From the NCBI GenBank assembly GCA_934539245.1, contig CAKTCK010000045.1, positions 1 to 16,203 on the forward strand: DNA of 16,203 nt, given 5' to 3'. A program made the position numbers and the translations under genes. The DNA is from an uncultured Faecalibacterium sp. (GTDB lineage: Bacteria; Bacillota; Clostridia; Oscillospirales; Ruminococcaceae). Below, in pieces: positions 2,441-6,924 of this stretch. Numbering within the stretch: the stretch's first letter is position 1; every line of letters begins with the position of its first letter. The notes under the pieces are model-generated. The model worked only from the letters and a program-made list of their open reading frames with translations, did not search any database and had not been told where the DNA came from.

Positions 2441-2457
2441 GGGCACGTTGCGTGCCC
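2441..2457 (+). promoter_or_regulatory. Leader hairpin ahead of glnS ribosome binding site
   Basis: GGGCACG (2441-2447) and CGTGCCC (2451-2457) form a perfect 7-bp stem with a TTG loop, ending 17 bases before the glnS ATG and just before its GGGGGA ribosome binding site. It could tune translation or protect the 5' end. No T-box or other known riboswitch pattern is visible in this short leader. Confidence 0.4.
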
Positions 2458-2474
2458 TGACAGGGGGAACCTAT

Positions 2475-4133
2475 ATGGCTGATAAAAACTTTCTGACAGA
2501 TATCATCGACGCCGACCTTGCCGAGGGCAAGGTGCAGCAGATCCACACCCGCTTCCCGCCGGAGCCCAACGGCTATCTGCACATCGGCAGCGCCAAGGCC
2601 ATCTATATCAACTGGTCCATTGCCAACCAGTACGGCGGAAAATTCAACCTGCGTCTGGACGACACCAACCCCGCCCGCGAAGGCGAGGAGTATGTCAACA
2701 GCATCATCGAGGATCTGCACTGGCTGGGTGCCGACCCCAACGGCGGCATCTTCTACGGCAGCGATTACTTTGATAAGTGCTACGAGTATGCCGAGAAGCT
2801 GATCACCGAGGGGAAAGCCTATGTGGATGACCTGACCCGCGAGGAGATGCGCGAGTACCGCGGCTCCGATGCCGGCAAGCCCTCCCGTCCGTCCCCGTGG
2901 CGCGACCGCAGCCCGGAGGAGAACCTTGACCTGTTCCGCCGGATGCGTGCCGGTGAGTTCAAGGAGGGCGAAAAGACCCTGCGCGCCAAGATCGATCTGG
3001 CAAGCCCCAACATGAATATGCGTGACCCGGCCATCTACCGCATCAAGTACGCCGAGCATCACCGTCAGGGCAACAAGTGGTGCATCTACCCCATGTACGA
3101 CTTCGCTCACCCCATTCAGGACGCCATTGAGGGTATCACCCACAGCATGTGCAGTCTGGAGTTCGAGAACCATCGCCCGCTGTACAACTGGGTCATCGAG
3201 AACATCTTCGGCGCCGAGTTCCCCAAGCAGCGCGAGTTCGCCCGCCTGAACATGACCAACACGGTCATGAGCAAGCGCTACCTGCGCGAGCTGGTGGAGA
3301 TGGGCATCGTGGACGGCTGGGACGATCCCCGTATGCCTACCCTGTGCGGTCTGCGCCGCCGCGGCTACACCCCCACCTCCATCTTCACCTTTGTGCGGGA
3401 GGCCGGCATCTCCAAGTCTGACAACCTGATCGATATGCGCCAGCTGGAAGCCTGCATCCGCAGCGAGCTGGATCTGACCGCACAGCGCCGCATTGCCGTA
3501 CTGGAGCCGGTCAAGCTGGTGGTGGACAACTACCCCGCCGACAAGACCGAGTACTTTGACGTAGCCAACAACCCCAACCGCGAGGCCAACGACACCACCA
3601 CCCGCAAGGTAGCCTTTACCCGCGAGCTGTGGATCGACGCCGAGGACTTCGCTGAGGTACCGCCTCCCAAGTTCAAGCGCCTGACCGTGGACGGCGAGGT
3701 ACGCCTGATGGGTGCTTATATCGTCAAGTGTACCGGCGTGGACAAGAACGCCGATGGCAGCATTGCCGCCATCCACTGCACCGCCGATCTCGAGACCGGT
3801 AACGGCAACCCCGCCGATGGCCGCAAGGTCAAGGGCACCATCCACTGGGTAAGTGCCGCACACTGTGTGGATGCCGAGGTGCGCCTGTACGACAAGCTGT
3901 TCACCGAAGCCAACATGAACGGCATCCCCGAGGGCAGCGACTACAAGGACTACCTGAACCCGGAAAGCGTCACCGTGCGCACCGGCTGCAAGCTGGAAGA
4001 GAGCCTGAAGGACGCAAAGCCCGGCGAAAAGTTCCAGTTCGTGCGCACCGGTTTCTTTACCCCGGACAGCAAGAACCCCGGCGTGTATAACCGGGTGGTC
4101 ACCCTGCGCGACAGCTTCAAGCCCGCAAAATAA
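2475..4133 (+). CDS. glnS: Glutaminyl-tRNA synthetase
   Basis: Class I aminoacyl-tRNA synthetase that charges tRNA-Gln directly with glutamine and ATP. The RFPPEPNGYLHIGSAKA segment (residues 26-42) carries the HIGH-type motif as HIGS. LRLDDTNP follows near 59-66, and the KMSKS-type loop is VMSKR at 264-268. The C-terminal beta-barrel anticodon-binding region is present, and the length (552 residues) matches the bacterial enzyme. An in-frame TTG at 2448 would add nine residues, but it sits in the loop of a leader hairpin. The ATG at 2475 has GGGGGA about seven bases upstream and begins with a normal family N-terminus (MADKNFLTDII). Many Firmicutes lack GlnRS and use GatCAB transamidation instead, so its presence is a lineage marker. 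It forms a unit with the next gene, 27 bases on. Confidence 0.95.
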   Translation: MADKNFLTDIIDADLAEGKVQQIHTRFPPEPNGYLHIGSAKAIYINWSIANQYGGKFNLRLDDTNPAREGEEYVNSIIEDLHWLGADPNGGIFYGSDYFDKCYEYAEKLITEGKAYVDDLTREEMREYRGSDAGKPSRPSPWRDRSPEENLDLFRRMRAGEFKEGEKTLRAKIDLASPNMNMRDPAIYRIKYAEHHRQGNKWCIYPMYDFAHPIQDAIEGITHSMCSLEFENHRPLYNWVIENIFGAEFPKQREFARLNMTNTVMSKRYLRELVEMGIVDGWDDPRMPTLCGLRRRGYTPTSIFTFVREAGISKSDNLIDMRQLEACIRSELDLTAQRRIAVLEPVKLVVDNYPADKTEYFDVANNPNREANDTTTRKVAFTRELWIDAEDFAEVPPPKFKRLTVDGEVRLMGAYIVKCTGVDKNADGSIAAIHCTADLETGNGNPADGRKVKGTIHWVSAAHCVDAEVRLYDKLFTEANMNGIPEGSDYKDYLNPESVTVRTGCKLEESLKDAKPGEKFQFVRTGFFTPDSKNPGVYNRVVTLRDSFKPAK

Positions 4134-4160
4134 TCACCCGCAAGGAGAAGATACCATACC

Positions 4161-4550
4161 ATGACCGCAAAAATGACCCGTAATATCCTGCTCATGCTGG
4201 CAGCCACCGTGCTGATGGGCATTGTGCTGAACCTGTATATCCACAACACCGGCACCGTACCCGCCGCCGACAACGCCGCCCCCCTGACCGATGGCAGCTA
4301 CACCTCCTCTGCACAGGGCTGCCTGAGTGAGGTGACCGTCACAGTCACCGTGACCGGCGGCAAGGTGACCGCCGTACAGGTAGACGCCTCTGCCGAGACC
4401 CCGGACTTGGGCGGCAAGGCCGCTGAGACGCTGGCAGCCCAGCTGACACAGACCGGTTCCACCGCCGGTGTAGACGCTATCACCGGCTCCACCATGACCA
4501 GCGAGGCCATCTTTACCGCCATGGACGCCTGCCTTGCACAGGCGCAGTGA
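4161..4550 (+). CDS. Membrane-anchored FMN-binding domain protein
   Basis: A 129-residue protein with a hydrophobic N-terminal segment (about residues 8-26) acting as an uncleaved anchor or signal peptide, then a small extracytoplasmic domain of the FMN_bind type (PF04205). The motif D105-A-I-T108-G109-S110-T111 matches the D-x-x-T/S-G-A/S-T flavinylation sequence, in which an ApbE-type flavin transferase attaches FMN to the last threonine. This predicts covalent FMN on T111 outside the membrane and a role in extracellular electron transfer or as a redox partner; the partner is not in the window. An AAGGAGAAG ribosome binding site precedes the ATG. It follows glnS closely and shares its terminator, so co-transcription is likely even though the functions look unrelated. 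Family assignment rests on the motif and size. Confidence 0.8.
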   Translation: MTAKMTRNILLMLAATVLMGIVLNLYIHNTGTVPAADNAAPLTDGSYTSSAQGCLSEVTVTVTVTGGKVTAVQVDASAETPDLGGKAAETLAAQLTQTGSTAGVDAITGSTMTSEAIFTAMDACLAQAQ

Positions 4551-4576
4551 TGCTGTAAAAATCACCCCTTTAACGC

Positions 4577-4617
4577 AAATGACCTGCTGTACAAGCACTG
4601 TGCAGCAGGTCATTTTT
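4577..4617 (+). terminator. Rho-independent terminator of the glnS unit
   Basis: AAATGACCTGCTG (4577-4589) pairs with CAGCAGGTCATTT (4603-4615), and T's continue to 4617. The next promoter's -35 box starts only three bases later. Confidence 0.85.
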
Positions 4618-4619
4618 CA

Positions 4620-4648
4620 TTGTAGAACATGTTGGATTATGTTATACT
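4620..4648 (+). promoter_or_regulatory. Predicted promoter of the 36-residue peptide mRNA
   Basis: TTGTAG (4620-4625), a 17-base spacer and TATACT (4643-4648). The predicted transcript begins near 4654 and at once enters a 7-bp hairpin (CTGCCGC 4653-4659 with GCGGCAG 4667-4673), a typical 5'-end stabiliser. Confidence 0.65.
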
Positions 4649-4716
4649 TAGTCTGCCGCACTAAAAGCGGCAGGTGCTGTCTGCACAAAAGGTGGTCTAG
4701 CTTCCTCCGGCAAGCT

Positions 4717-4755
4717 TCCGGGGGCTGTGAAACCTTATTGTCTGGTTCCCCCGGA
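4717..4755 (+). promoter_or_regulatory. Leader hairpin upstream of the peptide start
   Basis: TCCGGGGG (4717-4724) pairs with CCCCCGGA (4748-4755), with an inner AACC/GGTT pairing (4731-4734 with 4744-4747). The leader is about 125 bases, long for a 36-codon gene, and the hairpin ends 15 bases before the AAAGGGGGG ribosome binding site. The free G-run of that site could pair alternatively with the C-run of the hairpin, which would make translation depend on folding. Confidence 0.5.
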
Positions 4756-4781
4756 CGCAAACGCGAAAGGGGGGATGCCAC

Positions 4782-4892
4782 ATGACACTGGATAACGTTC
4801 TGCAGCTGTTCGTCATTATTGGCGGCACAGTCGGGATCACGTTCAAGATTTCGTGGGCGATCTTTCAGGAGATTCATAACAATAAGAAATGA
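4782..4892 (+). CDS. 36-residue hydrophobic peptide, candidate type I toxin
   Basis: Too short for ordinary gene callers. The peptide begins MTLDNVLQLFVIIGG and ends with the charged, Lys-rich tail IHNNKK. One membrane helix spans about residues 5-28. The layout of acidic N-terminus, single helix and short basic tail is that of Firmicutes type I toxins and the small holin-like toxins (TxpA, BsrG, Fst, Hol_Tox types), though I cannot assign a particular family. A strong G-rich ribosome binding site (AAAGGGGGG) lies seven bases before the ATG. The gene has its own promoter (4620-4648), a long structured leader and a converging antisense promoter (5014-4986). Its TGA stop (4890-4892) lies inside the stem of the bidirectional terminator. 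A toxic membrane action is inferred, not shown. Confidence 0.65.
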   Translation: MTLDNVLQLFVIIGGTVGITFKISWAIFQEIHNNKK

Positions 4893-4931
4893 CCGCCCCA
4901 GCGTTCCAATTCCTGAGCGGTCATTCTTATT
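4881..4931. terminator. Bidirectional terminator shared by peptide mRNA and antisense RNA
   Basis: AATAAG (4881-4886) and AATGACCGC (4888-4896) pair with GCGGTCATT (4917-4925) and CTTATT (4926-4931): 15 bp with a single bulged A. The hairpin forms on either strand and includes the last codons and stop of the peptide gene, so the two converging transcripts overlap by about this length. Confidence 0.7.
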
Positions 4932-4979
4932 GACGTACTTAGCTAAAGGAAGCTGACCATTGCAGACAGCACCTTTTCT
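4885..4979 (-). ncRNA. Predicted antisense RNA (antitoxin candidate)
   Basis: A minus-strand transcript predicted from the strong promoter at 5014-4986 would start near 4979 and end at the shared hairpin, about 95 bases. No open frame with a ribosome binding site is present in it. Its 3' part is complementary to the end of the peptide gene and its 3' UTR. Its 5' part repeats the leader of the sense transcript (see the repeat entry). The arrangement matches type I antitoxin RNAs. Ends are estimates. Confidence 0.55.
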
Positions 4980-4985
4980 ATTTGT

Positions 4986-5014
4986 AGTATAATGCCCCCA
5001 CGCCGTTTTGTCAA
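4986..5014 (-). promoter_or_regulatory. Strong predicted promoter of the antisense RNA
   Basis: On the minus strand a consensus TTGACA (5014-5009), a 17-base spacer and TATACT (4991-4986), the same -10 box as the sense promoter but with a better -35. It lies just beyond the 3' end of the dehydrogenase gene (stop at 5027) and reads away from it on the same strand. Confidence 0.75.
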
Positions 5015-5026
5015 GCAGCGCCGGTT

Positions 5027-6019
5027 TTACAGGGTGCTTTGCAGCCGTGCACCGCTGGCGTACTGGGTGCGGCGATCCATCTGGTTATCCAGCGGCTGAC
5101 CGGCGGCATAGCGCTTGAGGTTGTGCGCAAAGATATCCACGATGTTGTCCAGTGTCTTGGGCAGACTGAAACCGCCGGTGACATGTGGCGTCATGATCAC
5201 GTTGGGCTCTGCCCACAGGGGATGCTCCGGCGGCAGCGGCTCGGGGTCGGTCACGTCCAGCCCTGCGCCGGAAAGCCGCCCGCTGTGCACGGCGGCTGCC
5301 AGTGCCTCACCGTCCACGGTGGTGCCGCGCCCCACGTTGAGCAGGATGGCACCGGGCTTGCAGAGCGCCAGCCGCTCTGCGTTGAACAGATGCAGCGTCT
5401 CCGGCGTGCCGGGCAGGCTCAGCGCCACAAGGTCTGCCTGCGGCAGTTCTGCGTCTAATTCGCTCTGCGCCACCACCCGGGTGCAGTAGTCCGGGCAGGG
5501 GGTGTCCGGGTGCACGGTGCGGCGCACGCCTACCACCTCGGCACCCAGCGCATACGCCCGTCGGGCAAAGTTAGAGCCAATATCGCCCATGCCCACGCAC
5601 AGCACCCGGCTGCCCGCAATGCTGCCAACAGAGTGACCGGTGGGTGCCCAGCGGTGCTCCCGCTGGTTGTCCCGGTAGGTGGGCAGCTCCTTGAGCAGGC
5701 TGAGCCACATTGCCAGCATGCACTCGCTGATCGCCAGACCGTAAGCACCGGTGGCGTTGGTCACGACGCAGTTCTCCGGCAGCACCCCCGGCTCCAGATA
5801 GTTATTCAGGCCGGCTGCGTTGGACTGGAACCACTCCAGATGGCCGTTCTGGCGGATCAGCGGCACCGGCAGGTTGCCCAGCACAGCATCGGCCCACAGG
5901 GCATCCTCTGCCGTGGCGGTATCCGAGGTCGTAAAGCGATATGCAAAGTCCTGCACCGCCTCAATGCGGGCCTTCTGCTCTGCGCTGATGGGCAGGCAGA
6001 CAAGGATATGTTTGGACAT
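5027..6019 (-). CDS. D-isomer-specific 2-hydroxyacid dehydrogenase
   Basis: NAD(P)-dependent cytosolic oxidoreductase of the D-2-hydroxyacid dehydrogenase family, reducing a 2-keto acid to a D-2-hydroxyacid or the reverse. The start chosen is the ATG at 6019 (MSKHILVCLPIS), with AGGAGA eight bases upstream; the open frame extends to 6151 but that part crosses the promoter. This gives 330 residues, normal for the family. Motifs: nucleotide-binding VGMGDIG (142-148), catalytic Arg in NVGRGT (R231), Glu in DPEPLPPEHPLW (E260) and His in MTPHVTGG (H279), so the active site is complete. Substrate (glyoxylate/hydroxypyruvate, phosphoglycerate or another keto acid) cannot be told from sequence. It lacks the ACT domain of long SerA. 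A promoter and a terminator separate it from the Hpt gene upstream, so it is probably monocistronic. Confidence 0.9.
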   Translation of the reverse strand: MSKHILVCLPISAEQKARIEAVQDFAYRFTTSDTATAEDALWADAVLGNLPVPLIRQNGHLEWFQSNAAGLNNYLEPGVLPENCVVTNATGAYGLAISECMLAMWLSLLKELPTYRDNQREHRWAPTGHSVGSIAGSRVLCVGMGDIGSNFARRAYALGAEVVGVRRTVHPDTPCPDYCTRVVAQSELDAELPQADLVALSLPGTPETLHLFNAERLALCKPGAILLNVGRGTTVDGEALAAAVHSGRLSGAGLDVTDPEPLPPEHPLWAEPNVIMTPHVTGGFSLPKTLDNIVDIFAHNLKRYAAGQPLDNQMDRRTQYASGARLQSTL

Positions 6020-6839: not shown

Positions 6840-6924
6840 GGGCGTGTTCCCGAGTGGCCAATGGGGACAGACTGTAAATCTGCTGCTTTCAGCTTCGGTG
6901 GTTCGAATCCACCCGCGCCCACCA
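6840..6924 (+). tRNA. tRNA-Tyr (anticodon GTA)
   Basis: An 85-base class II tRNA. Acceptor stem 6840-6846 pairs with 6914-6920 (one U-G pair), A6921 is the discriminator and CCA (6922-6924) is encoded. The anticodon loop 6872-6878 contains GTA at 6874-6876. The anticodon stem has four pairs plus an A-C mismatch at its top (6867 with 6883). There is a long variable arm near 6884-6896, as expected for bacterial tRNA-Tyr, and a T arm GGTGG/CCACC with loop TTCGAAT. It has its own promoter and terminator. Confidence 0.93.

Follow-up and report, generated by a model that had tools for sequence, protein, structure and literature searches.

A candidate type I toxin–antitoxin locus in Faecalibacterium with conserved complementarity between the two ends of the putative toxin mRNA

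In the bsrG/SR4 type I toxin–antitoxin system, as far as the consulted parts of two reviews describe it (PMC6562991, PMC7430163), the antitoxin RNA SR4 binds the 3′ end of the bsrG mRNA and lengthens its Shine-Dalgarno (SD) hairpin from 4 to 8 bp, and RNase III cuts bsrG/SR4 near the stop codon. Folding the bsrG mRNA yields a 5′–3′ helix similar to the one described below, with the tail strand of the main helix located about 55–87 nt past the stop codon. The Hol_Tox model (PF16935) finds one gene of 38 codons in phage SPbeta, which we take to be BsrG, as its length is the published one. Faecalibacterium is an abundant human gut commensal. Among the matches listed in the openly licensed literature we found no described type I system in this genus, which is not proof of absence. 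Here we analysed a 16,203 nt stretch of DNA from an uncultured Faecalibacterium sp. (contig CAKTCK010000045.1; hereafter the window), for which a type I locus had been predicted at 4620–5014 from the sequence alone. We confirm that this locus is real, with promoters, peptide and hairpin in place. With a probability of roughly 0.6, it is a chromosomal toxin–antitoxin locus that works like bsrG/SR4, encoding a putatively toxic peptide and two RNAs with predicted ends.

The element is flanked by an FMN-binding-domain gene (4161–4550) and a convergent 2-hydroxyacid dehydrogenase gene (6151–5027). A glutamyl/glutaminyl-type tRNA synthetase is encoded at 2448–4133 and a tRNA-Tyr (gta) at 6840–6924, and the neighbourhood is otherwise ordinary chromosomal as far as looked at. 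Rfam returned nothing on the element: at gathering level the tRNA was the sole match in the window, a single miRNA match between 4500 and 5100 (E ≤ 10) was at chance level, and 18 relatives gave no match on the element either.

A search with an alignment of 18 relatives covered 31 genomes of the nearest genus, of which 15 carry the element at E ≤ 0.01, in up to nine places per genome; the homologues that the original prediction proposed to look for thus exist. The nearest comparison genome shares 50% of the window's words. At E ≤ 1, a peptide search matched 17 of 100 genomes, three of which gave no more than chance-level matches, and a pattern scan revealed peptide-bearing copies on contigs of F. 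longum, F. hattorii and Faecalibacterium sp. I4-1-79. In strain I4-1-79 the window peptide is found without any change (L002, L135). After L015–L017 (chance level), L024 (no start codon) and L055b (a truncated copy) had been left out, 56 loci were kept. These comprised 55 unique loci, 54 after L028, which has lost its leader, was dropped, and were reduced to 41 representatives under 88% identity. In L011 no SD could be parsed, so that one analysis covers 54 of the 55 unique loci and the SD folding 40 of the 41 representatives. Three matches of the family alignment (L033, L041, L042) stand outside these counts; each shows the motif and strong end-to-end pairing, with no more than one mismatch in its antisense promoter. 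A chance origin of the locus is ruled out, as its repeat, antisense promoter and peptide are all conserved.

Two face-to-face promoters with identical TATACT boxes and 17-nt spacers are present exactly as predicted. The sense promoter (4620–4648, plus strand) consists of TTGTAG (4620–4625), 17 nt and TATACT (4643–4648), the latter within an extended −10 element, TGTTATACT. Its −35 box is weak (3 of 6 matches) and it falls below the pass mark of our promoter scan. The antisense promoter (4986–5014, minus strand) is built from TTGACA (5014–5009), 17 nt and TATACT (4991–4986). It matches at 11 of 12 positions, its −35 box being the better one as originally noted, and was the sole promoter-like site in a scan of 4000–5800, where 0.5 were expected. 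In the relatives it is found 85–113 nt past the stop codon: 34 of the 41 representatives show no more than one mismatch and 35 no more than two of 12 (1.3% of shuffles), and the remaining six have three mismatches. Upstream of the gene, at most one mismatch to the extended −10 consensus TGnTATAAT occurs in 23/41 representatives as compared to 5% of shuffles, and at most two in 40/41 as compared to 41%. Judged by these counts, conservation of the sense promoter appears less firm than that of the antisense promoter.

The 36-aa frame (4782–4892, plus strand) and its G-rich ribosome binding site, GAAAGGGGGGATG, are located where the original prediction placed them. The encoded peptide has one hydrophobic stretch and is a putative membrane toxin; as in a bsrG/SR4-type locus it is, going by its sequence, small and hydrophobic with a charged C-terminus. 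Synonymous change exceeded non-synonymous change in 51 of 51 comparable pairs (mean pS 0.54, pN 0.12), which indicates that the peptide is under purifying selection. Conserved DNA around a broken frame, the case that would have spoken against the prediction, was sought among the intact copies and was absent. Peptide length ranges from 32 to 47 aa across the family, with the anatomy kept. Searches of Pfam, NCBIfam, PHROGs and PADLOC with the window peptide gave no match, and none of the three window-family peptides scanned (window, L010 and L120) scored above the curated Pfam cut-off for Hol_Tox. A protein search with L010, a 40-aa relative, retrieved 29 matches, none with a Pfam domain; the three with a named source, two from Faecalibacterium, are annotated as hypothetical proteins. 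Comparing a profile of related Clostridia peptides with Hol_Tox gave a probability of 79% (E 1.7e-5), a value that is suggestive only. As to the claim of a new family, the peptides are unnamed and match none of the libraries searched, but kin do exist: loci in other Firmicutes and the bsrG locus share much of the anatomy.

The stop codon of the peptide lies in a hairpin at 4880–4932, with arms at 4880–4896 and 4917–4932 that are paired in 93% of cells. Read on the other strand, this hairpin would form the 3′ end and loop of an antisense RNA of about 100 nt (4880–4979, minus strand), whose ends are predicted from promoter and hairpin. Folding of 4979–4880 gave a z-score of −3.7, with 1 of 200 shuffles equally stable. 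As in bsrG/SR4-type loci, the antisense promoter thus sits just downstream of the peptide gene and the predicted RNA spans the mRNA 3′ end. YUNR loop motifs, in a loose expression, occur in antisense loops of 40/41 and sense loops of 21/41 representatives, L071 being unscored as it has no parsable hairpin; they were set aside as evidence for want of a chance control.

The predicted mRNA (4654–4936) folds with a z-score of −3.6, and none of 200 shuffles was equally stable. Its leader begins with a short 5′ hairpin, TGCCGC...GCGGCA (4654–4672), whose sequence differs among copies. Further downstream, CCTCCGG and CCGGGGG form an upstream hairpin (4704–4724), followed by a hairpin at 4748–4774 in which CCCCCGGACGC and GCGAAAGGGGGG hide the SD, and the main helix of which is paired in 89% of cells across the 41 copies. 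Alternatively, the 3′ arm of the upstream hairpin (4714–4724) can pair with the anti-SD (4748–4758).

The most prominent feature of the locus was overlooked in the original prediction. A perfect inverted repeat of 14 nt has one arm in the leader (X1, 4672–4685) and the other past the stop hairpin (T1, 4961–4974). Its 13-nt core, GGTGCTGTCTGCA, occurs twice in the window, at 4673–4685 on the plus and 4961–4973 on the minus strand, and nowhere else there (0.01 expected). A second block extends this complementarity with gaps: X2, GGTGGTCTAGCTTCC (4691–4705), aligns as a gapped complement of T2, GGAAGCTGACCA (4948–4959). We refer to the 5′ segments as X and to the 3′ tail of a read-through mRNA (4948–4974, plus strand) as T; on the antisense strand, T is the 5′ end of the antitoxin. 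The predicted antisense gene also begins at T, so antitoxin and mRNA would begin nearly alike.

Both helices are preserved by compensatory change. In the 41 representatives, 97.2% of X1:T1 cells and 93.1% of X2:T2 cells are paired, and compensatory change is seen at five of eight and three of six pairs, respectively. Over the whole structure, 96 cells have changed on both sides as compared to 31.6 in shuffled controls (0/500 shuffles); the number of further pair types, 35, is not above the shuffled 33.1 (86/500). Sliding the structure removes the covariation signal, although it was drawn from the window sequence, which favours the unslid version. RNAalifold without any hint drew helix 2 and not helix 1 from alignment A2, and both X:T helices from separately aligned segments. 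Energetically, a locus's own X:T duplex averages −68.4 kcal/mol, as compared to −50.2 kcal/mol for duplexes between loci and −37.8 kcal/mol for shuffled tails. A locus's own T is the best partner of its X in 17/41 representatives (median rank 2) and beats the mean of the shuffled tails in all 41. A 5′–3′ main helix in the toxin mRNA, with its 3′ strand under the antitoxin, is again what a bsrG/SR4-type locus has, although equating it with the published bsrG helix is our interpretation.

To identify the strand under selection, we made use of wobble pairs: a G·U pair in the RNA of one strand corresponds to an A·C mismatch in the RNA of the other. Counted column-wise over the 41 representatives, sense and antisense wobbles number 25:6 in X:T (leaving out one column pair that is G·U in 36/41), 34:4 in the SD hairpin and 1:10 in the stop hairpin. 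X:T and stop hairpin differ with a Fisher p of 5e-5, and such p-values are overstated as the cells are related by descent. Selection thus appears to maintain X:T and the SD hairpin in the sense RNA, and the stop hairpin in the antisense RNA. The hairpin that the original prediction called bidirectional is present, but apparently maintained mainly for the antisense strand. As the X:T wobbles fit the sense strand, a sense RNA running past the hairpin and through T should exist. Duplex energies, which favour the sense strand of X:T in 36/41, were discarded as a measure of strand preference, as roughly two thirds of this advantage can be put down to base composition. Likewise, an alignment-based count of 144 vs 48 was not used because one fixed difference is repeated in it across many loci.

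How pairing with the tail would affect translation was addressed by folding 40 loci. The predicted unpaired fraction of the SD was 0.093 in tail-less mRNAs, 0.224 with the tail and 0.101 with shuffled tails. Blocking the tail as the antisense RNA would returned it to 0.093, close to the tail-less value and hence not an independent control. The SD was predicted to be more open with its tail in 36/40 loci when compared to the tail-less form and in 34/40 when compared to shuffled tails. The effect is modest; many of the rises are small, it is near nil in several loci (for example L003, L006, L022, L065 and L070) and it is reversed in L058. Mean predicted anti-SD:SD pairing dropped from 0.86 to 0.34 with the tail in 34 loci, and in the window the freed anti-SD is predicted to re-pair upstream (0 to 0.74). 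A universal anti-anti-SD switch was rejected, as upstream re-pairing rises in only 15 of the 34 testable loci (p 0.5).

Based on these data, we propose the following mechanism. The sense RNA would encode the short membrane peptide, the presumed toxin, and would pass through the stop-codon hairpin into T, with which, as the covariation shows, its own 5′ end X pairs. In the closed mRNA the hairpin hiding the SD would be loosened, so that the message could be translated. The antisense RNA has the better promoter and should therefore be in excess; it would be able to base-pair with the last part of the reading frame, the stop hairpin and T. Owing to its 5′ end, which resembles that of the mRNA, it could take T from X, whereupon the SD hairpin would re-form. 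By analogy with bsrG/SR4, the resulting mRNA:antisense duplex would likely be cut by RNase III. A more speculative extension, to which we give little credence, is that, in this compact Clostridia branch, the antitoxin copies the mRNA 5′ end and competes with it for the tail, and that the X1:T1 helix, with its 5′ strand some 280 nt upstream, and the U-rich stretch behind it form the mRNA 3′ end as a long-range terminator. If so, the mRNA 5′ end would decide both where the message stops and whether it is read. No recognisable terminator was seen after T, and the sequence downstream of T1 contains on average 6.7 T in 10 positions in the 41 copies, a figure that has no control and includes the mis-anchored L077, scored 0. 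However, the predicted antisense start falls in the same stretch, an everyday explanation for its U-richness.

Comparing genomes at a single site, where the original prediction had proposed to look for coupled gain or loss, shows that the unit comes and goes as a whole. In G001 and G004 it is missing together with both promoters, 45 and 43 bases replacing the window from 4560 to 5023 and 5024, respectively, whereas G007 and G024 carry it at the window's site. About 180 (G024) and 130 (G007) extra bases, including a palindrome, separate the FMN-binding gene terminator from the element there (L220, L222) and are absent from the window. In this respect, and in the conservation of its parts across tens of loci and the selection on the peptide, the type I reading originally proposed is supported; what it lacked was the end-to-end pairing of the mRNA. 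In five broken copies (L024, L028, L116 and the second copies in L055 and L097) the leader or the peptide start is gone and the antisense half is kept. In L024, L028 and the L055 and L097 second copies the promoter deviates at no more than one position; L116 (near 1237) was judged by eye. Such copies are the remnant to be expected of a toxin–antitoxin pair, although our searches are biased towards the 3′ half, so that copies broken the other way may have escaped them. They are possible orphan antitoxins, and those in L055 and L097 (6794–7000) lie in tandem behind an intact copy.

At both G031:C1:1462899-1478334 and G011:C1:2956299-2971328, three copies with identical peptides are clustered in about 15 kb, two of them facing one way and the third the other. 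The plasmids searched contained no match to the element. Two phage records matched, with a best identity of 58%; one, MT838975.1:2399-2506 from a faecal phage, encodes a relative of the window peptide. On the viral contig L211 (2363–2437), the peptide is identical to that of the Agathobaculum locus L101, so that some copies may travel on phages. Hol_Tox-like matches (E ≤ 0.1, some with an internal stop) occur in 6 of the 31 genus genomes (G003, G005, G009, G012, G014, G018). These do not overlap with the 15 genomes that carry the window family, a pattern that differing assembly completeness may confound.

The closed 5′–3′ mRNA could instead be an inert storage form, activated by 3′ trimming, with the antisense RNA binding the trimmed or nascent message. 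The hok and aapA toxin mRNAs are silenced by closing long-distance interactions, as stated in the part of PMC6733600 consulted, and an X:T duplex strong enough to outdo shuffled tails throughout the representatives would suit such a form. However, X holds neither the SD nor the anti-SD, the closed form is the one for which folding predicts the more open SD, and much of the antitoxin's target lies in T and would be lost upon trimming. We consider this scenario unlikely. A role as an antisense-controlled small membrane protein that is non-toxic at natural levels, such as a regulator or stress peptide, would agree with the wide variation in peptide length within a constant anatomy. It accounts less readily for a strong SD that is held shut, for several paralogues per genome and for five broken copies that lost the peptide side and kept the antisense half, with the search bias noted above, and we regard it as rather unlikely.

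Because X and T form an inverted repeat around a gene, and the unit is gained or lost in one piece, they might act as DNA, either as an operator pair or as the terminal repeats of a mobile element. Pairing at the DNA level would hardly leave wobbles that lean towards the sense strand in X:T and towards the antisense strand in the stop hairpin; moreover, the repeat encloses neither promoter and the boundaries of the empty sites lie beyond the promoters, making this a very improbable explanation. The par/Fst system, in which convergent promoters share a hairpin (PMC7472228, as excerpted), invites the idea that mRNA and antitoxin bind each other through the repeats. The DNA repeats of par are direct and yield complementary RNAs, whereas those described here are inverted, so that both RNAs carry the same sequence. 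With the repeat orientation wrong, membership of the par/Fst family was rejected, and binding of that kind is hardly credible.

Much of the anatomy of the proposed bsrG/SR4-like locus recurs in other Firmicutes. The stop-in-hairpin pattern alone is found in at least 118 stretches of bacterial genomes and in 12 from viral contigs. Among these at least 130 stretches, 39 have a stretch resembling a ribosome binding site ahead of a short hydrophobic peptide whose end falls in the motif. Thirty-two of them were tested, omitting L097, L109, L120, L135, L194 and L195 (of the window family or genus, or the one other-genus member already used) and L211 (a duplicate). Among the 32 are loci from Butyricicoccus, Agathobaculum, Mitsuokella, Lachnospiraceae and Cohnella. 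In 21/32, a count without a shuffle control, an antisense promoter deviating at no more than one position lies 78–97 nt past the stop, and the X:T energy is at least 3 sd below that of shuffled tails in 23/32. In the other nine the z-score is above −3, with L146, L149 and L165 showing no signal; the start chosen for L149 and L190 is probably wrong. The Cohnella locus L095 contains a bona fide Hol_Tox gene (E 5e-10) with the stop-in-hairpin motif, and L181 has the same peptide. Their X:T z-scores are −1.4 (not significant) and −4.5, respectively, and the best antisense promoter of either has four mismatches.

If our reading is correct, several copies per Faecalibacterium genome have gone unannotated, as none of the protein-family libraries searched recognises their peptides, and further loci in other Firmicutes would bear the same anatomical mark. 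The order of X, SD hairpin, stop in hairpin, T and antisense promoter may serve as an anatomical rule that finds such systems without relying on the peptide. Moreover, the covariation makes the competition between antitoxin and mRNA 5′ end directly testable by compensatory mutation.

In timP/TimR of enterobacteria, according to the portion of PMC11228461 consulted, the principle is similar to that of our model, as the active conformation contains a distant pairing that the antitoxin disrupts. However, this is a pseudoknot between the stem-loops SL1 and SL3 in Gram-negative bacteria, and we claim no sequence kinship. The par locus of pAD1, encoding Fst, resembles the window in its convergent transcripts and shared hairpin, as described in the source excerpt, and differs in having direct rather than inverted repeats. 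In B. subtilis txpA/RatA, as in the window, the antitoxin overlaps the 3′ end of the toxin mRNA, and the SD is very strong (PMC3531473, in the part consulted, for the SD). Unlike in our model, published probing found no antitoxin-induced change at the ribosome binding site; the comparison is with the published description.

The closest similarity is with bsrG/SR4. The peptide is short and hydrophobic with a lysine tail in both, and the antisense RNA, predicted for the window and described for bsrG in the parts of the reviews consulted, lies over the mRNA 3′ end. Whereas bsrG has a terminator after its tail, the antisense promoter lies directly there in the window. The window stop codon, unlike that of bsrG, is inside a hairpin, a motif which the window in turn shares with the Hol_Tox gene of Cohnella L095. 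As the window peptide fails the Hol_Tox model, we do not file the locus under that family. With the profile comparison as a suggestive pointer, we hypothesise that it is probably a distant relative of bsrG/SR4. It would represent a compact variant, multicopy in several Faecalibacterium genomes, in which the stop codon is part of the antitoxin hairpin and the antisense promoter stands directly behind the tail, in the place that the terminator occupies in bsrG.
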